The notes under the pieces were generated by a model that had not been told where the DNA came from, did not search any database, and saw only the letters and a list, made by a program, of their open reading frames with translations. This document shows, piece after piece, positions 12,794 to 29,005 of a stretch of 64,000 bases of DNA; position 1 is the first letter of the stretch; every line of letters starts with the position of its first letter. The position numbers and the translations under genes were made by a program. Origin of the DNA: Ilumatobacteraceae bacterium (lineage in GTDB: Bacteria; Actinomycetota; Acidimicrobiia; Acidimicrobiales; Ilumatobacteraceae); contig JAHEKY010000003.1 in the NCBI GenBank assembly GCA_024644465.1, forward strand, positions 1 to 64,000, given 5' to 3'.

Positions 12794-13507
12794 GTGACGT
12801 ACGAGTTGATCGAGCGAGCCGGTACGGCCGCCGAGTTGCATGCGCTGGCGCTTCCTGATCCGGCGCGCCCGGAGCTGTGGTGGCATCGCGTGACGTCACC
12901 TGCACTCGTGCTCGGCTCGACCCAGCGCGACGAAGTGGTCGACGTCGATGCGTGCGCCGCCGCGGGTGTGGACCTCGTGCACCGTCGCAGCGGGGGCGGT
13001 GCGGTGCTGCTCGTCCCGGGTGCCGTCGCGTGGCTCGACGTCGTCCTCCCGGCCGGCGCGCCGGGGTGGGCCGCCGACGTACACGCACCGATGCGCTGGA
13101 TCGGCGCCCACCTCGCCGCTGCGGTGCGCGAGACGCTCGGCGGTTCGCACGACGTGACGTTCAACGCCGACGGGATGCGCCCGACCGCGTGGTCGCCCAC
13201 GGTGTGCTTCGACGGTGTCGGCCCCGGCGAGGTCCTCCTCGACGGAGCGAAGCTGATCGGGATCAGCCAGCGCCGGTCGCGCCCGGCCGCTCGGCTCCAG
13301 TGCTCCTGGTACCTCGCTCACGACCATCGCGACCTGGCCCGCCTGCTCGCGCCCGCGCATCGGCCACCGGTCGACGAATTGCAGGCGGTGGCGACCGTGC
13401 CGGCCGACCGGTCGGTGCGGATCCGAGATCTGGTGCACGAAGCGCTCGACCGCGAACTCGAGGGCACTCATGGGGCTCTGGGGAATGAAATGGGGAAGAA
13501 TGGTTGA
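12794..13507 (+). CDS. lipoate-protein ligase / octanoyltransferase-like protein
   Basis: A 237-residue protein of the biotin/lipoate A/B ligase fold. Visible motifs are RRSGGGAVLL (about 69-78, ligand loop) and the conserved lysine in DGAKLIGISQRR. A preceding Cys in TVCFDG matches the catalytic Cys position of LipM-type octanoyltransferases. It lacks an LplA-type C-terminal accessory domain. It may transfer octanoate or lipoate to carrier domains, but the acceptor is unknown. GTG start. Its last 12 or so codons coincide with the MraZ operator of the downstream division cluster. Confidence 0.72.
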   Translation: MTYELIERAGTAAELHALALPDPARPELWWHRVTSPALVLGSTQRDEVVDVDACAAAGVDLVHRRSGGGAVLLVPGAVAWLDVVLPAGAPGWAADVHAPMRWIGAHLAAAVRETLGGSHDVTFNADGMRPTAWSPTVCFDGVGPGEVLLDGAKLIGISQRRSRPAARLQCSWYLAHDHRDLARLLAPAHRPPVDELQAVATVPADRSVRIRDLVHEALDRELEGTHGALGNEMGKNG

Positions 13508-13536
13508 CGGTGGGGGCAAATGGGGTAACAATGGGG
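13471..13536 (+). promoter_or_regulatory. MraZ operator: repeated TGGGG boxes
   Basis: TGGGG-type boxes start at 13491, 13501 (degenerate, TGGTT), 13511 and 13521 in strict 10-base phase, then at 13532. Two further TGGGG copies lie at 13471 and 13479. This matches the known MraZ recognition pattern, TGGGN units separated by five bases. The array spans the end of the octanoyltransferase-like gene and the promoter, so MraZ probably autoregulates the dcw operon here. Confidence 0.85.
13504..13532 (+). promoter_or_regulatory. sigma-A-type promoter of the dcw cluster (PmraZ)
   Basis: -35 TTGACG (13504-13509), a 16-base spacer, and -10 TAACAA(T) (13526-13532). The whole promoter is embedded in the MraZ boxes, with the -35 starting inside the degenerate box. 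The predicted transcript has a leader of about 75-80 bases before the mraZ GTG. Confidence 0.7.
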
Positions 13537-13615
13537 CCCGCCGGGGAGCCCTCCCGCGATTTCCGGCGCGAACAGGCCCGTTGCGGGGGACCGAGCCAGG
13601 AACGAGACACGACGC

Positions 13616-14032
13616 GTGTTTGTGGGGGTACACGAGCGACAGCTCGACGAGCGAGGCCGGGTGGCACTGCCGCCGACCTTCCGCCACCCCCTCGGTGACC
13701 AGTGCTATCTCTTCTCCGGTGAAGACGGCTGTGTCAGCGTCCGCAGCGTCGAGTCCTTCAAGGACGAAGCGAACGACCTGATCGCCCGCGTGAAGCGCGG
13801 CGAAGCCAGCCGCGATCGCCAGCGGGCCTTCGCCGCGTCGGCCAACGAGGCCGCGATCGACAAGCAGGGTCGCGTGACACTGTCGCCCGAGCTGCGGACG
13901 TTCGCCGGCATCGAGCCGAACTCCGCGGTCGTCGTCCTCGGCGACCTCGACCACATCGAGATCTGGGAGCCGGCGGCGTACGCCGCGCACCACGATCTGG
14001 GGACCGACGAACTCACGGGGAGCGCATCATGA
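13616..14032 (+). CDS. mraZ: MraZ transcriptional regulator of the dcw cluster
   Basis: A 138-residue DNA-binding protein with two SpoVT/AbrB-like repeats. The signature of each repeat is visible: LDERGRVALP (about 9-18) and IDKQGRVTLS (about 79-88). It binds TGGGN repeats upstream of its own gene and represses the division and wall cluster in bacteria where it has been studied; such repeats are present at 13471-13536. GTG start. The stop overlaps the rsmH ATG (ATGA). Confidence 0.95.
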   Translation: MFVGVHERQLDERGRVALPPTFRHPLGDQCYLFSGEDGCVSVRSVESFKDEANDLIARVKRGEASRDRQRAFAASANEAAIDKQGRVTLSPELRTFAGIEPNSAVVVLGDLDHIEIWEPAAYAAHHDLGTDELTGSAS

Positions 14033-15030
14033 GCGCAACGGCCAGCGACGGCTTCGACCACCAGCCCGTCATGCTCGCGGAAGTGACCGAGCTCTTCGCC
14101 GGTGTGCCACGGGGGACGGTCGTCGACGCGACGCTCGGAGGCGGCGGGCACACGCTGGCCCTGCTCGAAGCCCACCCGCACCTCGACGTACTGGGGATCG
14201 ACCAGGATGCGGCCGCGCTCGATGCGGCGATCGCGCGGCTGAAGCACCTCCACCAACGCCTCCGCACGAGCCATCGGCGCTTCGACCAGTTCCGGGCGGC
14301 GATGGCCGACCACGGGATCACCGCGATCAGCGGTGCGCTGTTCGACCTCGGCGTCTCGTCGCCGCAGCTCGACCGCGGCGCGCGCGGCTTCTCGTACCGC
14401 AACGACGGCCCGCTCGACATGCGGATGGATGCCGACCAGCCGTGGTCGGCATCCGACGTCGTCAACGGCTACGACGAGCGGGAACTCGCACGGATCATCC
14501 GGGCGTACGGCGACGAGCGGTTCTCGGGTCGGATCGCGAAGGCGATCCTCGCAGCGCGGCCGATCCAGACGACGTTCGAGCTCGCAGAGGTCGTGACGAG
14601 CGCAATTCCCGCCCCGGCCCGTCGCACCGGCGGCCATCCGGCGAAGCGCACGTTCCAGGCGATCCGGATCGAGGTCAACGGGGAACTGGACGTCCTCCCG
14701 GGCGCGCTCGACCAGGCAGTGGAGGCGACCGTCCCCGGCGGCCGGATCGCCGTGCTGTCGTATCACTCGGGTGAGGACCGGATCGTCAAGGAGCGGTTCG
14801 CCGTCGCCGCCGGGGCCTGTGACTGCCCGCACGATCTGCCGTGCGTGTGCGGTGCGATCCAGACGGTCCGTCTCGTGCGGGGGATCCCGAAGCGGCCGAG
14901 CGCGGACGAACAGTCGGCGAACCGTCGCGCCGCCTCTGCGCGGTTGCGAGTCGTGGAGCGGATTCCCGCGACGCGCAAGTCGGATGGCAGCCTCGTCGAG
15001 CCCGACGCCGACCCGGAGGCCGCATCCTGA
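14029..15030 (+). CDS. rsmH: 16S rRNA (cytosine1402-N4)-methyltransferase
   Basis: S-adenosylmethionine-dependent methyltransferase of 333 residues (MraW) that modifies C1402 of 16S rRNA. It starts with FDHQPVMLAEV, the usual family N terminus. The SAM-binding motif is DATLGGGGHTLALLE (about 36-50), and LFDLGVSSPQLD and the C-terminal region (YHSGEDRIVKERF) are typical. It sits in its standard place between mraZ and ftsL, overlapping the former by four bases and the latter by one. Confidence 0.96.
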   Translation: MSATASDGFDHQPVMLAEVTELFAGVPRGTVVDATLGGGGHTLALLEAHPHLDVLGIDQDAAALDAAIARLKHLHQRLRTSHRRFDQFRAAMADHGITAISGALFDLGVSSPQLDRGARGFSYRNDGPLDMRMDADQPWSASDVVNGYDERELARIIRAYGDERFSGRIAKAILAARPIQTTFELAEVVTSAIPAPARRTGGHPAKRTFQAIRIEVNGELDVLPGALDQAVEATVPGGRIAVLSYHSGEDRIVKERFAVAAGACDCPHDLPCVCGAIQTVRLVRGIPKRPSADEQSANRRAASARLRVVERIPATRKSDGSLVEPDADPEAAS

Positions 15031-15503
15031 TGGCCGTCCCGCTCCGCCGTTCCGCTCCAGCGTCGGCCGCTCCGGCCGCGAAGCCACGGCTCTCGCTCGC
15101 CAGTCGCCGCCGCCGGCGCTGGCCGCTCGCATTCGGCGTCGTGGCGACGCTCATCGTGCTCGCCGGCCTGCTCGGTGCGGCGGTCTTTCACACCCAGCTC
15201 GCGGAACGGCAGTTGCGGATCGACGCGCTCGAACGCGCGGTCAACGCCGAGCGTGAACGGTTCGACGAGCTGCGGTACCGCCGCGCCGAACTGCGCTCGC
15301 CGGTCCGGCTCGCTGACGAAGCCGACCCACTCGGCATGGTCCGCGGTGACACCGGCGAGTTCGTCGACGTCGATCCGTGGCTGGTCGCCAGGCAACTCGC
15401 GGCGGCCGGCGTCGTGGAGGACCACACCCGACGGGTGATCATCGAGACCGACCCGCTCGAGCAGTTCAGCGACGTGAAACGCGTCTCGGCCGGGCAACCG
15501 TGA
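15030..15503 (+). CDS. ftsL: FtsL-like cell division protein
   Basis: A 157-residue bitopic membrane protein. A basic cytoplasmic tail rich in Ala/Arg (1-30) is followed by one membrane helix (about 31-52) and a short coiled coil rich in Glu/Arg (about 55-90). This is the architecture of FtsL, which with FtsB and FtsQ activates the FtsWI septal synthase. Sequence conservation in this family is low, so the call rests on topology and position between rsmH and ftsI. The ATG overlaps the rsmH stop by one base. The tail after the coiled coil is longer than in proteobacterial FtsL. Confidence 0.82.
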   Translation: MAVPLRRSAPASAAPAAKPRLSLASRRRRRWPLAFGVVATLIVLAGLLGAAVFHTQLAERQLRIDALERAVNAERERFDELRYRRAELRSPVRLADEADPLGMVRGDTGEFVDVDPWLVARQLAAAGVVEDHTRRVIIETDPLEQFSDVKRVSAGQP

Positions 15504-15514
15504 GGGGATCGAGC

Positions 15515-17563
15515 ATGTCGCGGACCCGCACCACCCGCTCGCACGGCTCGACGCCGACGCGTCGCGCCCACGGGGGTGGCACTCGTGCCGCCGGCCGGCA
15601 AGCGGCGTCGACACCCGCCGCGAGCCGCCGACCATCGTCGAAGACGCCGTCGCGCGGCACGGTGACGTCGAGCCGGACCGCACCTGCGTCGCGACGGGTT
15701 TCGCCGATGCGCAAGCAGCCCGTGCCGGCTGCACGGAAGCAGTCACAGCGGGTGCCGGTCGCCGCGCCGGTGAAGCGGGCGTCGGGCAAGCGGGCCCGAG
15801 TGAACGCGCCCCGGCCGGAGACGCGCGCCACATCGCGCCGGCTCGCCTCCCCGCAGCGCAGGCTGAAGGTCGCGCTGTTCGCGATTGCACTGGTGCTGAC
15901 CGGAATCATCGGTCGCGTGACCTACCTCCAGACGCAGGAGGCCACGTCGCTGCGGTCGGCCGGTGCCGATCAGTGGACGCGCACGTACACGCTCACCGCC
16001 CAGCGGGGAACGGTGTTCGATCGGCACGGCAACGAACTGGCGATGTCGGTACCCGCCGCGTCGATCTCGATCAACCCGAAGCTGATCGTCGACGGGCCCC
16101 GGACCATCCAGGACCTCGACAACGTGCTCGACCTGCCGGACGACACGGTCGCCGAGCTGCTCGACGAAGTCGCCCGCAAGGACCGGGGGTTCGTGTACGT
16201 CGCCCGGCAGGTCGACGCGAACGTCGGCGACTTCATCCGGGAACTCGGGCATCCCGGCGTCAACGTCGACGCCGAGGCGCGGCGCGAGATGCCCGGCGGC
16301 GACACCGGCCGCAGCGTGATCGGTCGGACGAACATCGACGGGCTCGGCATCGCAGGGCTCGAAAAGCAGTACGACGACGTGCTCACGGGCACCGGCGGAT
16401 CGATGACCCGCGAAGTCGACCCGATGCAGCGGATGATCGCCGGCTCCGAGACGATCACCCAGGCACCGGTGAGCGGCGACGACCTCGTGCTCACCCTCGA
16501 CCGCTCGATCCAGTTCGCCACCGAGCAGGTACTCCTCGAGCAGCTCAACAAGATCGGCGGCAAGGGCGCGACCGCGATCGTGATGGAGACGTCGACGGGC
16601 GAGATCTACAGCATGGCGTCGGTGCGCCGCGACCAGATCACGGGTGCGTACGAGGTGACCAGCGGCAACTTTGCCGCCGTCGACTCCTACGAACCCGGTT
16701 CGGTCGCCAAGGTGATCACCGTGGCGGGTGCGCTCGACGCCGGCGCCGTCACGCCGGACACGACGTTCAACGTGCCGTGGCGCAAGAAGTACTACGACCT
16801 CTTCCTGTCGGACTCCCACGAGCACCCCGACCTGACGCTCAGCGTGTCGGACATCCTCGCGACATCGTCGAACATCGGCACGATCTCGATCCAGGAGCGG
16901 ATGGGCCGCTTCGAGCACCACGAGTACATGGCTGCGTTCGGCCTCGGCGAGCGGACCGCGCTCGACTTCCCGGGCGAGTCGTCCGGCATCCTCAAGAACC
17001 CCGAGGACCTGTGGGGCACCGAGCGGGTGACGGTCGCGTACGGCCAGGGTGTGTCGAGTACGTCGCTGCAGCTCGTCGCCGCGATCAACACGATCGCCAA
17101 CGGTGGCACCTACGTCGACCCGAAGCTGGTCCGCGCGACCGTCGGCCCCGACGGGACGCAGACGGCGACGCCGGACTCCGCGACGAGGCGGGTCGTGTCG
17201 GAACAGGCGGCGACCGACACCACGGCGATGATGCGGCGAGTGGTCTGCGAGGGGACGGCGAAGCGCGCGCAGGTCGAGAACCTGTCGATCGCCGGCAAGA
17301 CCGGGACCGCCTTCAAGGCCGCCGACAACGGCACCTACTGGAACGACGAGGGCCGACGGGTCTACTACGCCAGCTTCGTCGGGTTCTTCCCGGCGGAGGA
17401 CCCGCAGGTCACCGTACTCGTCTCGGTCGACGAGCCTCCGGCCGGCACGGGCGACCGCTTCGGCGGCACGGCCGCGGCGCCGGTGTTCGCCGCCCTCGTT
17501 CCCACACTGATCCACGAACTCAACCTGCAGCCGCCCGCGGGCAGTTCCGGGTGCGCAGAATGA
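15515..17563 (+). CDS. ftsI: septal peptidoglycan transpeptidase (PBP3/FtsI)
   Basis: Class B penicillin-binding protein, 682 residues, that cross-links septal peptidoglycan with FtsW. Active-site motifs are S396-VAK (in EPGSVAKV), S451-S-N and K595-TG (in AGKTGTA). The dimerisation domain begins with QRGTVFDRHG. The single membrane helix lies at about 117-136, preceded by an unusually long cytoplasmic tail of about 115 residues rich in Arg, Lys, Ser and Pro. The ATG was chosen because AGGGGATC lies just upstream; a GTG at 15500 overlapping the ftsL stop is an alternative. Confidence 0.94.
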   Translation: MSRTRTTRSHGSTPTRRAHGGGTRAAGRQAASTPAASRRPSSKTPSRGTVTSSRTAPASRRVSPMRKQPVPAARKQSQRVPVAAPVKRASGKRARVNAPRPETRATSRRLASPQRRLKVALFAIALVLTGIIGRVTYLQTQEATSLRSAGADQWTRTYTLTAQRGTVFDRHGNELAMSVPAASISINPKLIVDGPRTIQDLDNVLDLPDDTVAELLDEVARKDRGFVYVARQVDANVGDFIRELGHPGVNVDAEARREMPGGDTGRSVIGRTNIDGLGIAGLEKQYDDVLTGTGGSMTREVDPMQRMIAGSETITQAPVSGDDLVLTLDRSIQFATEQVLLEQLNKIGGKGATAIVMETSTGEIYSMASVRRDQITGAYEVTSGNFAAVDSYEPGSVAKVITVAGALDAGAVTPDTTFNVPWRKKYYDLFLSDSHEHPDLTLSVSDILATSSNIGTISIQERMGRFEHHEYMAAFGLGERTALDFPGESSGILKNPEDLWGTERVTVAYGQGVSSTSLQLVAAINTIANGGTYVDPKLVRATVGPDGTQTATPDSATRRVVSEQAATDTTAMMRRVVCEGTAKRAQVENLSIAGKTGTAFKAADNGTYWNDEGRRVYYASFVGFFPAEDPQVTVLVSVDEPPAGTGDRFGGTAAAPVFAALVPTLIHELNLQPPAGSSGCAE

Positions 17564-17603
17564 GCACCGGCACGACTCCGTGCGCCGTGCCCGGGACGGT
17601 GAC

Positions 17604-19067
17604 ATGAGTCGTGCGGCGGTTCCGGCGACCGCGATCGTCGATGTCCTCGGAGATGCGGTGAGCGAGGTCGTCGGTGACGTCGACGGGCTCGACGTCGCGT
17701 ACGTCACGCACTCGTCGCCGGATGTCCCACCTGCGTCGTTGTTCGCCTGTCTCCGCGGCGCGTCGGCGGACGGCCACGACTTCGCCGGTGCCGCCGTCGA
17801 GGCGGGTGCCTCGATCCTGCTCGTCGACCATCCGCTCGATCCGTCCGTCGTCGGCGCGGTGGCGCAGATCGTCGTCGCCGACACCCGACGCGAGCTCGGG
17901 CCGGTGGCCGCCCTCGTCGCCGGCCGGCCGAGCCGGTCTCTGCACACCGTCGGGGTCACGGGCACGAACGGCAAGACGACGACCGCGATGATGCTGGCCG
18001 CGATCTTCGAGGCGAACGGGTGGGGGACCGGCGTGATCGGCACGCTCTCCGGGCTGCGCACGACTCCCGAGGCACCCGAGCTGCAACGCCGCCTCGCCGG
18101 CTTCGTCGACGACGGATGCGCCGCGGCGGTGCTCGAGGTGTCGTCGCACGCCCTCGCACTACACCGTGTCGACGGCACCGAGTTCGATGTCGTCGTGTTC
18201 ACCAACCTCGGCCACGACCACCTCGACCTGCACGGGACGCCGGAGGACTACTTCCGCGCGAAGGCTGCGCTGTTCGTCCCCCGGTTCGCACCGGTCGGCG
18301 TGATCAACGTCGACGACACGCACGGGCGGTTGCTCGCCGACGCGTCGGCGGCACCCGGCGAGTTCAGGGTCGTTCCGTACTCGACGGCCGACCTGACCGA
18401 CGTCGCCGTCGCCGCGACGAGGATCGAGTTCCGGTGGCGCGGCCACCACTTCGACGTGAACGCGGGGGGCTCGTTCAACGTGTCGAACGCGCTCGCGGCG
18501 ATCGTGACCGCCGCCGAGTTGGGGATCGAACCGGACGTCGCCGGGGTCGGCCTCCGTGCCCTGCCCGCGATTCCGGGGCGGTTCGAGACGGTCGCCTCAC
18601 CGGCCGACGGGACCGCCGCGTTCACCGTGGTCGTCGACTACGCCCACACACCGGACGGTCTGCGCGAGGTCATCTCGGCGGCGCGGGCGGTCGCCGCTCC
18701 CGGCGCGGCAGTGATCATCGTGTTCGGGTGCGGGGGCAACCGTGACCAGGCGAAACGTCCCGAGATGGGTGAGGCTGCGGCGACGGCGGCCGACCTGGTG
18801 ATCGTCACCTCCGACAACCCCCGCACAGAGGATCCGAGCGCGATCATCGGTGACGTCCTCGCCGGAGTGCCCAGCAACTATCGTGCCCGCGTCACGTCGA
18901 ACCCGGACCGCCGACACGCGATCGGTGATGCGCTCGACACGGCACGCGCTGGCGACGTCGTCGTCATCGCCGGAAAAGGCCATGAGCAGACGCAGGATCT
19001 CGGCGGCACGACCGTCGAGTTCGACGATCGGGTCGTCGCCCGGTCGATCTTGGAGGACATGTCGTGA
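17604..19067 (+). CDS. murE: UDP-MurNAc-L-Ala-D-Glu:meso-diaminopimelate ligase
   Basis: Cytoplasmic ATP-dependent ligase of 487 residues that adds the third residue to the peptidoglycan stem peptide. The P-loop GTNGKTTTAMM and LEVSSHALAL are visible. The substrate motif SDNPRTEDP indicates meso-diaminopimelate, not lysine. The ATG at 17604 is preferred over an in-frame GTG at 17580. There is a gap of 40 bases after ftsI. The stop overlaps the mraY start (GTGA), so murF, which normally lies between them, is missing. Confidence 0.95.
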   Translation: MSRAAVPATAIVDVLGDAVSEVVGDVDGLDVAYVTHSSPDVPPASLFACLRGASADGHDFAGAAVEAGASILLVDHPLDPSVVGAVAQIVVADTRRELGPVAALVAGRPSRSLHTVGVTGTNGKTTTAMMLAAIFEANGWGTGVIGTLSGLRTTPEAPELQRRLAGFVDDGCAAAVLEVSSHALALHRVDGTEFDVVVFTNLGHDHLDLHGTPEDYFRAKAALFVPRFAPVGVINVDDTHGRLLADASAAPGEFRVVPYSTADLTDVAVAATRIEFRWRGHHFDVNAGGSFNVSNALAAIVTAAELGIEPDVAGVGLRALPAIPGRFETVASPADGTAAFTVVVDYAHTPDGLREVISAARAVAAPGAAVIIVFGCGGNRDQAKRPEMGEAAATAADLVIVTSDNPRTEDPSAIIGDVLAGVPSNYRARVTSNPDRRHAIGDALDTARAGDVVVIAGKGHEQTQDLGGTTVEFDDRVVARSILEDMS

Positions 19068-20113
19068 TCGCCCTGATGATCGCCACCGCGGTGTCGACGT
19101 TCGTCTCGTTGTTCGGGACGCGGTTCCTGATCAAGTTCTTCCGTACCCGTGGCCAGGGTCAGCCGATCCTCGGCAAGGAGGACCGCGGGCCGGAGCACCA
19201 CATGATCAAGCAGGGCACGCCGACGATGGGCGGCCTGGCGATCATCGGCGCCGCCTTCATCGGCTGGACCGCAGCGCACGTCCGGGACCTCGCGTTCTCG
19301 CGGCAGGCGATGATCGTGTGGGCGGGCGTGTTGTTCCTCGCGGCGATGGGGTTCCTCGACGACTACATCAAGGTCCGCAAGTCGCACAACCGCGGCATCT
19401 TCTGGAAACAGAAGAACTACATCACGATGGTCTCCAGTTTTCTGATGGCGTGGGGCCTCGTCGTCGGGACCGGCATCTCCGAGACGATCTCGATCACCCG
19501 TCCCGACATCGGCATCGAGGTCCCGACATTCGTGTGGATCATCTGGGCGGGGGCGATCATCTGGGCGACGACGAACGCGGTCAACGTCACCGACGGTCTC
19601 GACGGCCTCGCCGCAGGATCCGCGGCGATGGGCTTCGGCGCATTCACGCTGATCGCCTACTGGGCGTTCCGCAACAACGACATCTACGGAGCGATTGTCA
19701 ACCCGCTCGACATGGGCGTCTTCGCCGCGGCCTTCGCGGGCGGCTGTCTCGGCTTCCTGTGGTGGAACGCGGCGCCCGCCCGCATCTTCATGGGTGACGT
19801 CGGCGCACTCGCGATCGGTTCGGCCCTCGCGTTCCTCGCGTTGACGACGAACACCCACCTGCTGATCGTGCTGATCTGCGGCATCAATGTGATGGAGGCG
19901 GGTTCGGTCGCGATCCAGATGGGCGTGTTCAAGGCGTCCGGGCGCAAGCGTCGCCTGTTCCGGATGTCGCCGATCCACCACCACTTCGAGTTGGTCGGCT
20001 GGCCGGAGACGACGGTCATCATCAGGTTCTGGCTGATCGCCGGGATCTGCACGGCGACGGCGGTCGCGATCTTCATCGCCGACTTCACGAGCGTGGCGGC
20101 GGACCTGCCGTGA
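19064..20113 (+). CDS. mraY: phospho-MurNAc-pentapeptide translocase
   Basis: Polytopic membrane enzyme of 349 residues that transfers phospho-MurNAc-pentapeptide to undecaprenyl phosphate, giving lipid I. Hallmarks are GQPILGKEDRGPEHHMIKQG (cytoplasmic loop), PTMGGL, FLDDYIKVRK, NAVNVTDGLDGLAAG with its catalytic aspartates, and the loop with SPIHHHFELVGW. About ten hydrophobic helices are visible. The GTG start overlaps murE, and the stop overlaps murD (GTGA). Confidence 0.96.
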   Translation: MIALMIATAVSTFVSLFGTRFLIKFFRTRGQGQPILGKEDRGPEHHMIKQGTPTMGGLAIIGAAFIGWTAAHVRDLAFSRQAMIVWAGVLFLAAMGFLDDYIKVRKSHNRGIFWKQKNYITMVSSFLMAWGLVVGTGISETISITRPDIGIEVPTFVWIIWAGAIIWATTNAVNVTDGLDGLAAGSAAMGFGAFTLIAYWAFRNNDIYGAIVNPLDMGVFAAAFAGGCLGFLWWNAAPARIFMGDVGALAIGSALAFLALTTNTHLLIVLICGINVMEAGSVAIQMGVFKASGRKRRLFRMSPIHHHFELVGWPETTVIIRFWLIAGICTATAVAIFIADFTSVAADLP

Positions 20114-21483
20114 CGACGGCGATGGTCTACGGACTGGCCGTTGCCGGCGCGTCGACCGTGCGGGCGCTGCAGCGCCGAGGCCACGACGTCGTCGTGGTCG
20201 ACGACTCGTCGACGCCCGCGCGGGAGGACCTCGCAGCGGAACTCGGTGTCGATCTGATCGACGGCGCGACCGCCGACGTCGACGGATTGCTGGCGCGCTG
20301 CTCGCTGCTGTGCCCGTCTCCGGGTGTACCGGAGACCCACGACGTGATCGCCGCCGCGCTCCGTCGTGACGTGCCGATCGTGTCGGAGATCGAGCTCGCG
20401 TACCGCTGGGAGCAGGAGCGCCCGGCCGGGCCGCGTCCGATGCTCGCGGTGACCGGTACCGACGGCAAGACGACGACGACGAAGCTGACGGTCGCGATGC
20501 TCGCCGCCGCCGGCGTCCGCAGCGTCGACGCCGGCAACACCGACACGCCGCTCGTCGACGCGCTCGAACAGGACCTCGACGCGTTCGTCGTCGAGTGCAG
20601 CAGCTTTCGGCTCGCATGGACACCGAGCTTCCGGGCGGAGGCGGCTGCGTGGCTCAACTTCCAACCCGACCACCTCAACTGGCATCGGTCGATGGCCTCG
20701 TACGAGGACGCGAAGAACCAAGTGTTCGCGAACCAGCGGCCGACCGACGTGGCGATCGGCTTCGCCGACGATCCCGTCATTGCGCGGCGACTCGCGGCGG
20801 CGCCGGGCCGGGCGGTGACGTTCGGGCTCAGTGCAGCGGACTACCGCACCGACGGCGACGACCTGGTCGGCCCGGAGGGCACGATCGCGACGCGGGGCTC
20901 GATGCGCCGCGCGCTGCCGCACGACGTGACGAACGCGCTCGCTGCGTCGGCGCTCGTGCTCGAATCGGGTCTCGGCACCGTCGAGGCGATCCGCGCCGCG
21001 CTGGCGACCTTCGCCGGGCCGCCGCATCGACTGGAATGGCTCGGCGAGTGGGACGGAGTCGCCTGGTACAACGACTCCAAGGCGACGACGCCACACGCGG
21101 CTGCGGCTGCGATCCGTTCCTTCGACCGCATCGTGCTGATCGCCGGAGGTGCCGACAAGGGGGTCGACCTGGACCCGATGGCGGCCGACATCGACCGGGT
21201 GCGCGGCGTCATCGCGATCGGGACGACGGCAGCGGCGATTGCCGAGACGTTCGCCGCGGCACCGCGTGTCGAGATCGCCGGGACGCTCGATCGAGCGGTG
21301 GCGACCGCCCGCGAATGGGCTCGCGCGGGGGACAGCGTGCTGCTCTCGCCGGGGTGCGCCAGCCTCGACCAGTTCACCAACTTCGAAGCTCGCGGCGAAA
21401 CGTTCCGAGCGCTCGTCGACCAGCAATTCGGCGACACACCGCTGCGCGTGTCGCCCGGAGACCCCACGGAGGCCCTTGCATGA
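20110..21483 (+). CDS. murD: UDP-MurNAc-L-alanine:D-glutamate ligase
   Basis: Cytoplasmic ligase of 457 residues. The N-terminal nucleotide-binding domain begins VYGLAVAGASTVRALQRRG, the P-loop is VTGTDGKTTTTKL, and the central domain contains NDSKATTPHA, typical of MurD. The C-terminal domain ends with LSPGCASLDQFTNFEARG, another MurD hallmark. GTG start overlapping mraY; the stop overlaps the ftsW ATG. Confidence 0.95.
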   Translation: MTTAMVYGLAVAGASTVRALQRRGHDVVVVDDSSTPAREDLAAELGVDLIDGATADVDGLLARCSLLCPSPGVPETHDVIAAALRRDVPIVSEIELAYRWEQERPAGPRPMLAVTGTDGKTTTTKLTVAMLAAAGVRSVDAGNTDTPLVDALEQDLDAFVVECSSFRLAWTPSFRAEAAAWLNFQPDHLNWHRSMASYEDAKNQVFANQRPTDVAIGFADDPVIARRLAAAPGRAVTFGLSAADYRTDGDDLVGPEGTIATRGSMRRALPHDVTNALAASALVLESGLGTVEAIRAALATFAGPPHRLEWLGEWDGVAWYNDSKATTPHAAAAAIRSFDRIVLIAGGADKGVDLDPMAADIDRVRGVIAIGTTAAAIAETFAAAPRVEIAGTLDRAVATAREWARAGDSVLLSPGCASLDQFTNFEARGETFRALVDQQFGDTPLRVSPGDPTEALA

Positions 21484-22787
21484 CATCGACGCTGAACGTC
21501 ACCGCACGACGACGCGCGACGTTGGAACGCCAGCAGCAACGCCACCCCGCCCGGCGCGCGCCGGCGGCTGCGAAGAGGCAGCTCAGGGTCGCGCCCGTCG
21601 GCCGCAGGGAGCCTCAGTCGCTCGCCATCCGGACTCGGCGGGTGCTCGGCCTGGACGGGGCGGTGGGCACGGACGACCGGCGCACGCTGGGGCCGCCGCC
21701 GGGCACGTTCTACGTGATCGCAGCGGTCGTCACCGTGTTCGTCATCTTCGGCCTCGTGATGGTCCTCTCGGCGTCGGCGGTCACGCAGGCGAACGTCGGC
21801 AACTCCCCGTACGCGGTGTTCAGCAGGCAGGCGATGTGGGCCGGCTGCGGGATGATCGGGCTGATCGCGATGACCCGGATTCCGTACACGGTCTGGAGGC
21901 CGCTTTCGATCCCGCTCGGGTTGCTGGGCGCAGCCGCGATGGCGGCCCCCTTCGTGCCGGGGCTCGGCGTGACGATCAACGGTGCGCGGTCGTGGGTACG
22001 CGTCGCCGGGCTGTCGGTCCAGCCGTCGGAGTTCCTCAAGCTCGTCGTCGTGATCGCGGCGGCGGACCTGCTCACGCGCCGTGAGCGCGACCTCGCCGAC
22101 CACCGGCGCACGCTGTTGCCGATCGCGGCGCTCGCCGGTGCCGCCGCAGCGGGCAGCCTGATCCAGGGTGACCTCGGCTCGGCCATCGTCCTCGCCGCGA
22201 TCGTGCTCGCGGTCGCATGGATCGCCGGGGTGCCGTTCTTCCCGCTCACCGGCGTCACGATCGGGGCCGCGGTGATCGCCGTCGCGTTCGTGCTGTCGAG
22301 CGCGAGACGGCTCAGCCGGTTCACCGCGTTCCTCGACATCGAGGGCCACAAGGACCTCGAGTCGTATCAGGTGTGGCAGGGCATGGTCAGCATGGCGAAC
22401 GGCGGGTTCACCGGTTCGGGCATCGGCGGCAGCCGCGGCAAGCTCGGCTACCTCCCGTATGCCCACAGCGACTTCATCTTCGCGATCATCGTCGACGAAC
22501 TCGGGATGCTCGGCACCGCCGCGGTGATCGGCGGCTTCATCGTGCTCGTCGCGTTCGGCATCCAGACCGCGCTGGCCGCCCCCGATCGTTTCGGGATGTT
22601 GCTCGCCGGGGGTGTCTCGGCGTGGTTCGGCGTCCAGGCGATCGTCAACCTCGGCGGCGTCACGGGGGTGATGCCGGTGACGGGTCTGACGCTGCCGTTC
22701 TTCTCAGCGGGCGGCAGTTCGTTGTTCGTCAGCATGCTCGCCGCCGGCCTCCTCCTCAGCGTCGCCCGCCGCGCGATCCGTCACTGA
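21480..22787 (+). CDS. ftsW: FtsW-type septal peptidoglycan glycosyltransferase
   Basis: SEDS-family membrane protein of 435 residues that polymerises lipid II at the septum together with FtsI. A basic cytoplasmic tail of about 75 residues precedes about ten helices. Conserved features include GARSWVRVAGLSVQPSEFLK, IQGDLGSAIV, GGSRGKLGYLPYAHSDFIFA, the large-loop Glu in VDELGM, and GLTLPFFSAGGSS. The ATG overlaps the murD stop. Confidence 0.95.
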   Translation: MTSTLNVTARRRATLERQQQRHPARRAPAAAKRQLRVAPVGRREPQSLAIRTRRVLGLDGAVGTDDRRTLGPPPGTFYVIAAVVTVFVIFGLVMVLSASAVTQANVGNSPYAVFSRQAMWAGCGMIGLIAMTRIPYTVWRPLSIPLGLLGAAAMAAPFVPGLGVTINGARSWVRVAGLSVQPSEFLKLVVVIAAADLLTRRERDLADHRRTLLPIAALAGAAAAGSLIQGDLGSAIVLAAIVLAVAWIAGVPFFPLTGVTIGAAVIAVAFVLSSARRLSRFTAFLDIEGHKDLESYQVWQGMVSMANGGFTGSGIGGSRGKLGYLPYAHSDFIFAIIVDELGMLGTAAVIGGFIVLVAFGIQTALAAPDRFGMLLAGGVSAWFGVQAIVNLGGVTGVMPVTGLTLPFFSAGGSSLFVSMLAAGLLLSVARRAIRH

Positions 22788-22789
22788 TC

Positions 22790-23926
22790 GTGGACGACGT
22801 GCCGTCCGGCCCCAACGCGGCGACGTTCGCCGTCGTCACCGGCGGTGGCACTTCCGGACACGTGCTGCCCGCACTCGCGGTGGCCGAGGCGCTCGTCGCG
22901 CACGGTCACGACGCTGCGACGATCCGCTACGTCGGCTGCACCCGTGGGATCGAGACACGGTTGCTGCCGGCGACACCGTTCCCGCACGTCTTCTACGACG
23001 TCGTCGGGTTCCAACGCAGCCTCAGCCGTCGCAACCTCGCGTTCGTCCCGAAGATGCTGCGGGCGACCCGCCGAGCGATCAGCGCGTTCCGGGCGGATCG
23101 ACCGCGGGTGGTGGTGTCGGTCGGCGGCTACGCGAGCATGCCCGCGGTCTTCGCGGCCCGCCGTCTGAAGATCCCGGTCGTCGTCGTGTCCTACGACCGC
23201 ACGCCCGGCCGGGCCAGCCGGTTGGCAGCGCGCCGCGCAGCGGCATGTGCCGTCGCGTTCGAGAACTCGCCGCTCCCGAACGCCGAGTTGACCGGGGCGC
23301 CGATCCGCCGGCAGATCCTCGACGTCGATCGGGTCGGCGACCGGGCGGCGGCGCGTGAACGCCTCGGTCTGGACGCGGACCGCTTCGTCGTGGCCGTGAT
23401 GGGTGGGTCCCAGGGCTCCGGCGTGCTGAACGGGGCGATCGGCGCATACGTCGCAGCCCACCGTGACGACACCGGTCTCGCGGTGCGGCACGTCGCGGGC
23501 GAGCGCTTCGCCGCCGACGTCGCACCGCTCGACGTCGGGGTGTCCGGGGTCGTGCACCAGGTCATCGGCTACGAGGACGACATGCCCGCGGTGTATGCGG
23601 CCGTCGACCTGTTGATCGGTCGAGGTGGTGCGAGCACCGTGCACGAGGTCGCGGTCACCGGGACCCCTGCGATTCTCGTGCCCTGGGCGAACGCCGCCGA
23701 GGATCATCAGACCGACAACGTCCGCTGGCTGGCCGAGCGGGAAGCGGCGGTGTTGTTGCCGGAGGCCGACCTCGACCGCCTCGGCGACGAGATCGAGCGG
23801 CTCCGTCACGACGACGCGGCGCGCACCGCGCTCGGTGCGGCCGCAGCCGAGCGGGGAGAGGTGCATCGTTCCGGCGCATTGGCCCGTCTGATCGAGCGGG
23901 TCGCCGTATCCTCAGTGCCATCGTGA
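22790..23926 (+). CDS. murG: UDP-GlcNAc:lipid I N-acetylglucosaminyltransferase
   Basis: Peripheral membrane glycosyltransferase of about 378 residues that converts lipid I to lipid II. The N-terminal G-loop is GGGTSGHVLPAL with the conserved His near residue 24. A second G-loop is MGGSQGSGVLN, and the donor-binding region reads GRGGASTVHEV with EDHQTDN. The HEQN acceptor motif of most MurG proteins is replaced by SYDR (about 134-137). The start is uncertain: GTG at 22790, two bases after the ftsW stop, is used here and GTG at 22799 is possible. No clear Shine-Dalgarno is seen. Confidence 0.9.
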   Translation: MDDVPSGPNAATFAVVTGGGTSGHVLPALAVAEALVAHGHDAATIRYVGCTRGIETRLLPATPFPHVFYDVVGFQRSLSRRNLAFVPKMLRATRRAISAFRADRPRVVVSVGGYASMPAVFAARRLKIPVVVVSYDRTPGRASRLAARRAAACAVAFENSPLPNAELTGAPIRRQILDVDRVGDRAAARERLGLDADRFVVAVMGGSQGSGVLNGAIGAYVAAHRDDTGLAVRHVAGERFAADVAPLDVGVSGVVHQVIGYEDDMPAVYAAVDLLIGRGGASTVHEVAVTGTPAILVPWANAAEDHQTDNVRWLAEREAAVLLPEADLDRLGDEIERLRHDDAARTALGAAAAERGEVHRSGALARLIERVAVSSVPS

Positions 23927-25404
23927 GTCCGACGACACCGCCGACCACAACCGATCCCTTCGCCGGCGCCCCGGACATCGCGGCGACCGCGCGCCGCATG
24001 CCGATCGCTCCGCTCGACCTGTCGATCCCGCACCGCCTCCACGTGGTCGGTGTCGGCGGGCCGGGGATGAGTGCGATCGCGATCGCACTCGCCGAGATGG
24101 GCCACGACGTCTCCGGGAGCGACCTGCGGAACCATCCGGTGCTCGAACGCGTTCGCGCTGCCAGGGTGCGGGTCACGGTCGGGCACCAGCGGGCGCTCGT
24201 GCACGGCGTCGACGCGGTCACGGCGTCGACCGCGGTGCCCGCCCACAACGTCGAACTCGAGGAAGCCCGCAAGACGGGCGTGACGGTGCTTCGCAGGTCC
24301 GGCATGCTCGCGTCGATCTGTGCGCGGGCGAAGTCGTTGGCCGTCGCGGGGACCCACGGCAAGACCACGACGACGTCGATGCTCATGCTGATCCTCGCCG
24401 AGGCCCGGCTGCGGCCGAGCTTCATCGTCGGCGGAGATGTCACCGACGTCGGTACGGGGGCGCAGTGGTCGGGCGGCGAATGGCTGGTCGTCGAAGCCGA
24501 CGAGAGCGACGGCACGCACCTCGAGCTGCCGATCCACGGCACGATCCTGACCAACGTCGAGACGGACCATCTCGATCACTACGGCTCCTTCGACGCGATC
24601 GTCGAGAGCTTCGACACGTACCTCGCCCAGATCTCCGGCCCGAAGGTCGTCTCGGCGGACGATCCGGTCGCGAGGGGCCTCGCCGCTCGCCACGGTGCCG
24701 TCACGTACGGGCTCGGCCCGGATGCAGACGTTCGCGCCGTCGACGTGATCGCCGAAGACGGCTCGTTCCGGTACGTCGTCGAACGGCGGCCCGCTGAGGG
24801 CGCGGACCACGTCCGGCTCGGCGAGATCGACCTCCCGATGCGCGGCATCTACAACGTGAAGAACTCGCTCGCCGCCGCAGCGATGGCGCTCGAGATCGGC
24901 GTCGACTTCGCCGACGTCGCCGCCGCCCTGTCGAGATTCGGCGGCGTCGCCCGGCGCTTCGACGTCCGGGGCACCGACGGCGGCGCGACGTTCGTCGACG
25001 ACTATGCCCATCTGCCGTCCGAGATCGACGCCGTACTGACCGGAGCGCGGGACAGCGGCGACGGGTGGAAGCGGGTGATCGCCGTGTTCCAGCCGAACCG
25101 GTTCAACCGGATCGCCGAGATCTGGCGGGAGTACCAGGACGCCTTCGTGAACGCCGACCTCGTCGTGCTGACCGACATCTACTCGTCCGGAACGACCCCG
25201 ATCCCCGGTGTCACCGGCAAGCTGATCGTCAACGCCGTCGCCGAGGCGCACCCCGACGCGCGGGTCGTCTGGTTGCCGCGCCGCAGCGACCTCGTTTCGT
25301 TCGTGGCCGGCGAAGCACGCGCGGACGATGTCGTGATCTCGATGGGATGTGGTGACATCGCATCGTTCCCGACGGAGGTGCTCGATGCCCGTCGCGCCCG
25401 CTGA
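23923..25404 (+). CDS. murC: UDP-MurNAc:L-alanine ligase
   Basis: Cytoplasmic ligase of 493 residues that adds the first amino acid of the stem peptide. Visible signatures are VGVGGPGMSAIA near residue 45, the P-loop AGTHGKTTTTSM, EADESDGTH, and TNVETDHLDHYG. The C-terminal domain contains FQPNRFNRI and DIYSSGTTPIPGVTG. GTG start overlapping the murG stop (GTGA). The last 20 bases overlap murB. Confidence 0.95.
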   Translation: MSPTTPPTTTDPFAGAPDIAATARRMPIAPLDLSIPHRLHVVGVGGPGMSAIAIALAEMGHDVSGSDLRNHPVLERVRAARVRVTVGHQRALVHGVDAVTASTAVPAHNVELEEARKTGVTVLRRSGMLASICARAKSLAVAGTHGKTTTTSMLMLILAEARLRPSFIVGGDVTDVGTGAQWSGGEWLVVEADESDGTHLELPIHGTILTNVETDHLDHYGSFDAIVESFDTYLAQISGPKVVSADDPVARGLAARHGAVTYGLGPDADVRAVDVIAEDGSFRYVVERRPAEGADHVRLGEIDLPMRGIYNVKNSLAAAAMALEIGVDFADVAAALSRFGGVARRFDVRGTDGGATFVDDYAHLPSEIDAVLTGARDSGDGWKRVIAVFQPNRFNRIAEIWREYQDAFVNADLVVLTDIYSSGTTPIPGVTGKLIVNAVAEAHPDARVVWLPRRSDLVSFVAGEARADDVVISMGCGDIASFPTEVLDARRAR

Positions 25405-26353
25405 CCACGCGGCTGCGGTCGACACCGCGCTCGGTCTGCTCGGTGACCTGGCCGAACGCGACGTCCCGATCGGCCCACTGACGACGTATCGCGTCGGCGG
25501 GGCCGCCGACGTGTTCGTGCGGCTGCGGGATCGGGCAGACCTCGAACCGCTCGCGGCCGCGGTCCGGGCGACCGCACTGCCCGTTCTGCTCGTCGGGCGG
25601 GGATCGAACCTGCTCGTCGCGGACAGCGGCTTCCGCGGCATCGCCGTCTCCGCGATCGAGATGGCCGACGCCACGTCGATCACGATCGACCCGGTCACGT
25701 CGGTCGTCCGCGCGGGCGGCGCGGTGCTGCTCCCCGTGCTCGCCCGGCGCACCGCCGCAGCGGCGCTGACCGGTTTCGAGTGGGCGGTCGGGGTGCCCGG
25801 TTCGGTCGGCGGCGCCGTCCGGATGAACGCCGGTGGCCACGGTTCGGACATGGCCGCCGTGCTCGTCGCCGCCACGATCGCGGACCTCGGCGCGCCGCCC
25901 GCGTCCGGCGACGGGGTCGTTCGCGCGGTCCCCGCCGGCGACCTCGATCTGCGGTTCCGGGGGAGTGGGATCGGCCCCGCGCAACTCGTGCTCGACGCGA
26001 CGATGCAACTCGCCCCTGGCGATCGCGACGTGGCAGAGCGTGAGATCAGCGAGATCGTGCACTGGCGGCGCGCCAACCAGCCGGGTGGTCAGAACGCCGG
26101 CTCCGTCTTCGTCAACCCGGTCCCCGGGGAGGTGACGTGCGGTGCGCTGATCGACGCCGCCGGCCTGCGCGGGTTCCGGCACCGCACCGCGACCGTCTCG
26201 GACAAACACGCCAACTTCATCCAGGCCGACGAAGGCGGATCGGCGGACGACGTCCGGGATCTGATGCGTCTCGTCCGGGAACGTGTGGAGCGGGCGAGCG
26301 GGTACCGGTTGCGCAGTGAGATCCGCCTGATCGGGTTCGAGGGCGAGTTCTGA
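25385..26353 (+). CDS. murB: UDP-N-acetylenolpyruvoylglucosamine reductase
   Basis: FAD-dependent reductase of 322 residues that completes UDP-MurNAc. Type I MurB signatures are LTTYRVGGAADVFV, LLVGRGSNLLVADSGFRG, GVPGSVGGAVRMNAGG and NAGSVFVNP (proton-donor Ser). Also present is the C-terminal LRSEIRLIG with its catalytic Glu. The ATG lies inside murC but has a strong Shine-Dalgarno, GGAGGT, five to six bases upstream. The stop overlaps the ftsQ ATG by one base. Confidence 0.95.
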   Translation: MPVAPADHAAAVDTALGLLGDLAERDVPIGPLTTYRVGGAADVFVRLRDRADLEPLAAAVRATALPVLLVGRGSNLLVADSGFRGIAVSAIEMADATSITIDPVTSVVRAGGAVLLPVLARRTAAAALTGFEWAVGVPGSVGGAVRMNAGGHGSDMAAVLVAATIADLGAPPASGDGVVRAVPAGDLDLRFRGSGIGPAQLVLDATMQLAPGDRDVAEREISEIVHWRRANQPGGQNAGSVFVNPVPGEVTCGALIDAAGLRGFRHRTATVSDKHANFIQADEGGSADDVRDLMRLVRERVERASGYRLRSEIRLIGFEGEF

Positions 26354-27741
26354 TGCTGCGGCGCACCAAGCGTGGCGAGCACGCCGCCGGCGCAGCGGAC
26401 GACGCAGTGACCGCCGACCCGGCCGTCGACGCGAACGCCGACGCGGTGACCGCGCCGGTCGGCCCGGTCCGGCCCGACGACAGCGTGCTCGACGAGTTGT
26501 CCCGGGTCTTCGGCGCGGCGGGCGAGAATGCGGACACCGACGACACCGCACCGTCGGAACCCGATCCGCTCGCCGCAGCGACCGAGCAGCCGGCGACGAA
26601 CGCACCGGCCGCGGCCGATGCGGGGGGCGGCACCGGCGGGGCCTCCGATGCGCCGACGCCTGCGGTGCGGCCGACGATCACGATCGGCGGCGACGACCTC
26701 GGCACCGGCGTCGCCGATCCCGTGCCGCTCGACGAGGCGCTCGGGCGCCCGGGTCGGCTGGGCGGTGACGACGCCGGCCCCACCGCAGAGCCGGCGGCCC
26801 GAGACCGAGCGACGATCTCGATCGTCGTCGGCGACGAGCTCCCCGATGCCGTCTACCTCGACGAGGAGTTGCAGGGCGACGATTCGTCGGGTGGCACCGT
26901 GTTCATCGACGACGACGGCACCGGCGACGCGCTCGCGCCGAAGGAAGCGACGTCACCGGGCATCGAACCCCGTTTCCGTCAGCGCCGGATCGGTGTGCGG
27001 CGCGCGGAGGGGCGGCGCCGGCTCAAGTGGGTCGTGATCGTGGTCATCGTCCTGATCGTCGTCCTCGGCGCGCTGACCGTGCTCGGGTCAGGCCTGTTCG
27101 CGATCGACGAGGTGTCGGTCGGCGGCGCGGTCTACACCGACGAGAACCGCCTCGAGGCTGTCGTCGACGAACTGCTCGGGACGCCCGTGTTGCTCGCCGA
27201 CACCGCACGGGCCGAGCGGGACCTGGAGGCGATCCCCTGGGTCGAGGACGCCCGCGTCCGGGCCCGGTTCCCGAATCGGGCCACGATCGAGATCCGGGAG
27301 CGCACGCCGGTCGCGACGATGCGCGGCGCCGACGGGCGCTTCCGGGTCCTCGATGCCGAAGGGCGCGTGCTCGACGTGATCGAGGGCCAGCCGGTCGCCT
27401 ACATCCTCATCGCGGGCCCCGGCACGCTCGACCTCGCCGCCGGCGAGTTCGCGCCGATCGGCCAGGCATCGGCGGCCGCGCTCGTCACGAAACTCACCCC
27501 CACGATCCGCCCGCGGGTCGAGTCGATCGAGGTGACCGCCGACGGCTCGGATCTCGTCGTCAATCTCGCGCCGGTGCCGGACAGCTTCCAGACGACGTCG
27601 ATCACGGTACGATTCGGCTCCGCAATCGGAGACAACGACCAGATCGAAAAGCTCGTACGCCTCGAACAGAAGCTCAATGACCTCCCGGACCGACCGATCT
27701 CGGAGATCAACGTGGCGACCGACGAAGTGACCGTGCTGTGA
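26353..27741 (+). CDS. ftsQ: FtsQ-type cell division protein with long acidic tail
   Basis: Bitopic divisome protein of 462 residues. One membrane helix lies at about 226-247, followed by a POTRA domain (FAIDEVSVGGAVYTDENR, then PWVEDARVRARFPNRATIEI) and an FtsQ domain. POTRA-FtsQ proteins link FtsL/FtsB to the septal synthase. The cytoplasmic N-terminal region is about 220 residues, far longer than usual, acidic and Ala/Asp-rich. It carries a duplicated motif: RPTITIGGDDL with VPLDEAL (106-130) and RATISIVVGDEL with VYLDEEL (151-173). A basic patch (RFRQRRIGVRR) precedes the helix. The ATG overlaps the murB stop. Confidence 0.9.
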   Translation: MLRRTKRGEHAAGAADDAVTADPAVDANADAVTAPVGPVRPDDSVLDELSRVFGAAGENADTDDTAPSEPDPLAAATEQPATNAPAAADAGGGTGGASDAPTPAVRPTITIGGDDLGTGVADPVPLDEALGRPGRLGGDDAGPTAEPAARDRATISIVVGDELPDAVYLDEELQGDDSSGGTVFIDDDGTGDALAPKEATSPGIEPRFRQRRIGVRRAEGRRRLKWVVIVVIVLIVVLGALTVLGSGLFAIDEVSVGGAVYTDENRLEAVVDELLGTPVLLADTARAERDLEAIPWVEDARVRARFPNRATIEIRERTPVATMRGADGRFRVLDAEGRVLDVIEGQPVAYILIAGPGTLDLAAGEFAPIGQASAAALVTKLTPTIRPRVESIEVTADGSDLVVNLAPVPDSFQTTSITVRFGSAIGDNDQIEKLVRLEQKLNDLPDRPISEINVATDEVTVL

Positions 27742-27845
27742 GTTCCATGCCACCGTCCCCGCTGCGACCTTCAGAACCTGGCAGGATGACCCTGATTGAT
27801 CTACCGGATATTCCGCTGGGCTGACATCGAACGGAAGACGAGCTC

Positions 27846-27908
27846 ATGAAGAACACACATCGCTGGCTGTACACACTCGGCCCGAGCCAACCCGGAAGGA
27901 GCTGCTGA
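27846..27908 (+). CDS. possible 20-residue leader peptide coupled to ftsZ
   Basis: ATG followed by 19 codons and TGA; the final A of the stop is the first base of the ftsZ ATG (ATGA overlap). The peptide begins [12 protein letters not shown] and ends GRSC. A weak purine-rich GGAAGACGAG precedes it. The ftsZ Shine-Dalgarno AAGGAG lies inside its last codons, so translating the leader could expose or block ftsZ initiation. A frame this short can arise by chance. Confidence 0.3.
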
Positions 27909-29005
27909 TGGTCGGCGCACCCCAGAACTACCTCGCGGTGATCAAAGTCGTCGGCGTCGGCGGCGGTGGCGTCAACGCGGTCAACCGGATGATCGACGCG
28001 GGTCTGAAGGGCGTCGAGTTCATCGCCGTCAACACCGATGCCCAAGCGCTGCTGATGAGCGACGCAGACGTCAAGCTCGACATCGGCCGGGACCTGACCC
28101 GCGGCCTCGGAGCCGGCAGCGACCCCGAGGTCGGCTCCGCAGCGGCCGAAGCCCATCGCGAAGAGATCGAAGAGATGGTCAAGGGCGCCGACATGGTGTT
28201 CATCACCGCGGGCGAGGGTGGCGGTACCGGTACCGGCGCCGCCCCGGTGATCGCCGAGGTCGCCCGGGAGGCCGGCGCGCTGACGATCGGTGTGGTGACC
28301 CGGCCGTTCTCGTTCGAGGGCCGCCGGCGCGCCGTGCAGGCCGACAATGGCGTCGGGCGCCTGAAGGAGAAGGTCGACACGCTGATCGTCATTCCGAACG
28401 ACCGCCTGCTGACCGTCGCCAACGACAAGACCAGTGTGCTCAATGCGTTCAAGATGGCCGACGAGGTGCTGCTGCAGGGCGTCTCGGGGATCACCGGCCT
28501 GATCACGACACCGGGGTTGATCAACACCGACTTCGCCGACGTCAAGGCCGTGTTGTCGAACGCCGGTTCGGCGCTGATGGGCATCGGCCAGGCGAGCGGC
28601 GACGAGCGGGCGATGTCGGCGGCGAAGGCCGCGATCTCGAGTCCGTTGCTCGAGTCGGCGATCGACGGTGCGCGCGGCGTCCTGCTCAACATCACCGGGC
28701 CGTCGAGCATGGGCCTGTTCGAGATGAACGCGGCGGCCGAGATCATCCACGGTGTCGCCCATCAGGACGCCAACATCATCTTCGGGACCGTCGTCGACGA
28801 CGAGATGGGTGACGAGGTCCGCGTGACCGTCATCGCGGCGGGCTTCGATCGAGTCGAGGGTGGCTCGAGTGGCCTCGGCTCGAGCGACAACCTCGGATTG
28901 CGGACCTCACCGACGCGGATCAACGAGCTGTTCGGCGAGGAGCAGGAGAGCGACCCCCTCGAGGACGACGACGACGATTTCGACGTCCCCTCGTTCCTGA
29001 AGTAG
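27908..29005 (+). CDS. ftsZ: cell division GTPase FtsZ
   Basis: Tubulin-like GTPase of 365 residues that forms the cytokinetic ring. The N-terminal loop is [14 protein letters not shown], the tubulin signature is [13 protein letters not shown] (about 104-116), and the synergy loop lies around [11 protein letters not shown]. The C-terminal conserved peptide reads [11 protein letters not shown], the binding site for SepF and other partners. The Shine-Dalgarno AAGGAG is about seven bases upstream of the ATG. The 166 bases before the gene hold no recognised promoter, only short open frames. The linker to the C-terminal peptide is short. Confidence 0.97.

Follow-up and report, generated by a model that had tools for sequence, protein, structure and literature searches.

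In the draft genome of an Ilumatobacteraceae bacterium (195 contigs), the 66 bases immediately 5' of mraZ carry six exact copies of TGGGG that interlock with the promoter of the gene. Judged from its sequence and by analogy with studied MraZ systems, this array is very probably the MraZ autoregulatory operator of the dcw cluster, at which MraZ, the product of the first gene, would act as a repressor. Most likely the array elaborates, within this lineage, a self-regulating switch of a known kind and is not a new mechanism. Here the switch has more sites than usual, and sites are built into the promoter recognition elements. Positions below refer to the whole 64,000-nt stretch of DNA that was analyzed (the window), all features lie on the + strand, and box offsets are counted from the -35 hexamer.

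The array is the densest TGGGG cluster in the window on both strands, since elsewhere no 66 nt hold more than two copies. When the 175-nt region was dinucleotide-shuffled, six boxes were reached in none of 5,000 shuffles (mean 1.05 boxes). Its core is a run of five TGG starts, the longest in the window at 10–11 bp spacing, comprising TGGGG at 13491–13495 (offset -13), a degenerate box that retains TGG only (TGGTTGAC, 13501–13508) and adjoins the -35, TGGGG at 13511–13515 (+7) and 13521–13525 (+17), both in the promoter spacer, and TGGGG at 13532–13536 (+28), whose T is the final base of the -10. The run forms a tandem TGGGN-type repeat at a ~10-bp pitch, apart from the TGG-only member at 13501; its only exact TGGGG-N5-TGGGG pair is 13511–13521, and the step from 13521 to 13532 is 11 bp. 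Upstream of the run, the box at 13471–13475 is in register after one empty turn (20 bp 5' of 13491), and the box at 13479–13483 (offset -25) is outside the 10-bp register, lying 8 and 12 bp from its neighbors. Downstream, a degenerate copy, CGGGG at 13542–13546 (offset +38), is again in register, and several congeners have TGGGG there. The preliminary description of this site had placed boxes at 13491, 13501, 13511 and 13521 in a 10-base phase, with extra copies on both sides and at least six in all. The phase is correct, the extra copies are found as the TGGGG at 13471, 13479 and 13532, and the count agrees with the six exact boxes, but 13501 is not a TGGGN box because it reads TGGTT.

A pattern scan of 400 bases returned a single sigma-70-type promoter, TTGACG-17-AACAAT at 13504–13532, of a kind seen in 0 of 50 shuffles. 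It consists of the -35 hexamer TTGACG (13504–13509), which is also supported by the family alignment, and the -10 hexamer AACAAT (13527–13532) after a 17-bp spacer, so placed that transcription is predicted to start at 13538–13541, 6–9 nt 3' of the -10. The earlier reading, TTGACG-N16-TAACAA, was right in its -35, whereas its -10 and spacer gave way to AACAAT and N17, on which the scan and the family conservation agree. Relatives have CATAGT, CATCAT, AATAAT or CACAAT at the place of the -10, and in Ilumatobacteraceae a -10-like hexamer (A at position 2, T at position 6) follows the -35 at a distance of 17 or 18 bases, where the hexamer of each relative was the best of four spacings, a choice that favors a match. 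Among the 73 TTGAC sequences of the window, TGG stands directly 5' of one, that of the mraZ promoter. No intrinsic terminator was found between mraZ and the gene before it, and folding of the array as a single-stranded DNA hairpin was unexceptional, 198 of 200 shuffles folding at least as well.

The gene behind this promoter, mraZ (13616–14032, GTG start), encodes the likely repressor. Its product matches the Pfam MraZ model PF02381 in two stretches (E-value 3.2e-18; 65.9 bits against a cut-off of 23) and shows a 124-residue alignment to solved MraZ chains, the DxxGR motif being present in both repeats; recent MraZ structures in the PDB are 9qlr, 9qlg and 9sx6. Against TIGR00242 the protein scores 74.1 bits over its full length, where the NCBI naming cut-off is 98.35, and the best NCBIfam models are all MraZ, so that by its sequence it appears to be a divergent MraZ. 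The array lies at the promoter of this gene, at the head of the dcw cluster, where an MraZ operator is expected. The cluster (14029–29005), its probable target as far as the predicted operon extends, continues with rsmH, an ftsL-like ORF, a PBP gene, murE, mraY, murD, ftsW, murG, murC, murB, an ftsQ-like ORF and ftsZ, in which ftsL and ftsQ are named by their position in the cluster. By RsmH, the nearest named relatives belong to Ilumatobacter, class Acidimicrobiia, with protein identities of 74–87% to Ilumatobacter MAGs and 72% to I. nonamiensis. murF is absent between murE and mraY (17604–20113) and lies on a separate contig of the same draft genome (G000:C163); in the remaining Ilumatobacter genomes that were searched, the murF above the cut-off is also away from mraZ, on another contig or at another place. 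Second, weaker MraZ-domain matches occur outside the dcw cluster in three relatives (L059 on G005:C16, L060 on G001:C130 and L061 on G026:C95), and these proteins are possibly paralogues or AbrB-like proteins. In the phylum sample, no MraZ match was obtained in three genomes from a single genus that are large and near-complete (G082, G160 and G178; 7.9–9.7 Mb).

When 35 Ilumatobacteraceae mraZ promoters were aligned on the -35, the boxes were found at fixed offsets. TGG starts at -24/-23 in 23 of the 35, at -13 in 30, at -3 in 29 and at +7 in 19, and further downstream at +17 in 23, at +28/+29 in 23 and at +38/+39 in 19; every remaining offset from -40 to +55 has TGG starts in fewer than 4. 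The TGG that adjoins the -35 as TGGTTGAC is accordingly present in 29/35 promoters, and the box that starts at +28 or +29, the place of the final T of the -10, in 23/35. The longest TGG run, found in a congener (G004), contains nine members. The comparison with relatives proposed in the preliminary description thus recovered the same boxes upstream of their mraZ. Its central claim, a promoter enclosed by an MraZ-box array, is borne out by the adjoining Pfam-confirmed mraZ, by the spacing conserved in the 35 family members and by a core that is unique in the genome. Three relatives (G021, G027 and G032; L045, L048 and L052) have mraZ and the TGGTTGAC promoter with few or no TGGG boxes, G027 only partly so, and in these the operator was possibly lost or changed. 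These exceptions, like the divergence of the MraZ studied here, weigh against the operator reading.

The uniqueness of the core was seen in genome-wide scans, which were pattern searches, with the 25-base query TGGGG-N5-TGGTTGAC-N2-TGGGG and one mismatch allowed. It matched in 24 of 60 genomes (this one and relatives), once in each, and the reversed control gave 0 matches; 23 of these 24 matches lay at the mraZ promoter, the exception being G058. Since the core occurs at most once per genome and nearly always at mraZ, the MraZ operator is probably a single-locus element. A regulon search of the genome itself with TGGGG-N5-TGGGG returned 8 matches, mostly simple repeats, against 9 for the reversed control, and hence gave no sign of further strong targets.

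To place the family in a wider frame, we compared the mraZ promoters of 56 other Actinomycetota, 22 of them others of the order and 34 from outside it. The 10-bp TGG period is kept in both groups, and the 34 promoters from outside the order have TGG runs upstream of mraZ with a mean of 2.97 versus 1.18 in shuffles. Outside the family, TGGGG is often replaced by AAGTGGAG, AAGTGGTG or AAGTGGCG at the same 10-bp period, which identifies TGG as the core of the box. These promoters resemble those of Ilumatobacteraceae in that TGG boxes lie within the promoter, where offsets of +8, +18, +28 and +38 are frequent, but their boxes are often TGGAG, TGGTG or TGGCG, and the runs are mostly of 2–4 and mostly start 3' of the -35. 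Ilumatobacteraceae have extra boxes at -23, -13 and -3, with +7/+17 in place of +8/+18. Runs of at least five TGG at 10–11 bp occur in 9/35 Ilumatobacteraceae versus 1/56 others (Fisher p 6e-4, ignoring kinship), so the earlier statement that the boxes exceed the usual three or four holds, by this comparison of run lengths, at the level of the family. Across all groups, the next box is at +7 in 18 of the 20 promoters with TGG at -3 and at +8 in 18 of the 21 lacking it (Fisher p 1e-6, ignoring phylogeny), and the downstream pair stays near +28/+38 either way. Plausibly, Ilumatobacteraceae gained an upstream block of boxes, which keeps exact 10-bp phase through the -35, and plausibly this block was joined to an older downstream block via the 11-bp step over the -10.

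The wider comparison also bears on a rival reading, to which we assign a very low probability: that the main role of the G-tracts is to form a DNA G-quadruplex and thereby control the promoter, in line with a proposal made for S. aureus mraZ. The boxes do create a G3+N1-7 quadruplex motif at 13512–13546, probably an incidental one, and a G-quadruplex has been reported in the S. aureus mraZ promoter (PMC11796246). However, the motif is not generally kept, being present in 16/35 promoters of the family, 5/22 others of the order and 0/34 outside the order, whereas all three groups retain the TGG period; moreover, the T, the 10-bp phasing and boxes of the kind TGGAG or TGGTG would all be superfluous for a quadruplex. 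Because the phase persists where the motif is missing altogether, the motif looks like a side effect. We regard as similarly improbable that the array serves another DNA-binding protein, for example the response regulator MtrA, whose binding upstream of mraZ has been reported in Dietzia (PMC9602371). Against this, the box fits the MraZ consensus TGGGN, its repeats have the 10-bp pitch also seen in the E. coli control, and the array is at mraZ in nearly every match; a different regulator may nevertheless act in addition to MraZ.

Least credible of all is that the repeats arose incidentally from coding sequence or from a G-rich composition where the upstream lipoate-ligase-like gene ends. This ORF (12794–13507) does read through 13471, 13479, 13491 and 13501 and ends in a TGA inside the -35, yet the homologous gene in two relatives (G007 and G008) ends ~175–280 nt before the array, the array is present in other loci checked where no such upstream gene was recognised, and six copies arose in no shuffle. 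A coding accident was ruled out by the conserved position of the array in relatives.

Under the preferred reading of the array as an MraZ operator, MraZ made from the first gene would bind the tandem TGGGG boxes through their TGG core. Relative to the predicted start, the flanking copies extend from -68 to +8 and the phased boxes occupy approximately -50 to -3; since the latter are about one helical turn apart, they would lie on one face of the DNA, so that MraZ arranged along this face could cover the -35, the spacer, the -10 and the start. Because the boxes adjoin the -35 (TGGTTGAC) and have one base in common with the -10 (AACAATGGGG), oligomeric MraZ bound to them would keep RNA polymerase out. 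Both mraZ and the cluster that follows would then be transcribed less, the predicted outcome being negative feedback that controls division and cell-wall gene dosage. For MraZ binding, repression and the extent of the operon, we infer the working of this site from E. coli, Mycoplasma and Burkholderia. A considerably more tentative proposal, which we hold to be possible and rather doubtful, is that the MraZ operator was extended in the evolution of Ilumatobacteraceae to runs of up to nine phased sites and came to incorporate both hexamers, by virtue of which repression may be more cooperative or more graded than at three- or four-box operators. If this were true, an MraZ oligomer could engage more boxes, or two oligomers could sit side by side. 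MraZ is widespread among bacteria as a regulator, and its operator has been studied in only a few lineages; the natural series of operators with ~2 to 9 phased boxes offers a set for testing both the engagement of boxes by MraZ oligomers and the way in which box number sets the strength of repression.

Among known MraZ systems, the site of Mollicutes, AAAGTG[T/G] (Fisunov et al. 2016, cited in PMC8475190), is likewise a direct-repeat series at the mraZ promoter and, in M. genitalium, occurs at one chromosomal locus (PMC8475190), but its box sequence is unlike TGGGG. M. genitalium MraZ is a repressor of the dcw cluster (PMC8475190), while in M. gallisepticum overexpression of MraZ was associated with raised FtsZ (PMC8475190), and simple repression may therefore not hold everywhere. 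B. cenocepacia MraZ binds four repeats at the promoter (PMC7761207); these are tandem repeats of 7 nt with 3-nt spacers, which gives the same 10-bp pitch, but they are only four and lie 3' of the -10 over the start site (PMC7761207). E. coli MraZ is described as a repressor acting via such repeats (PMC8475190), and in our E. coli K-12 control three TGGGN boxes were found at -43, -33 and -23 of the ATG. The E. coli Pmra operator (Eraso et al. 2014, cited in PMC8475190 and PMC7761207) shares with the present array TGGGN direct repeats at a 10-bp pitch adjoining mraZ. However, its three boxes lie 3' of the -10 in the latter account (PMC7761207), whereas the six exact boxes of the present array extend across the -35 and the -10 and interlock with both. 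In contrast to the E. coli arrangement, such interlocking speaks for simple occlusion of the promoter.
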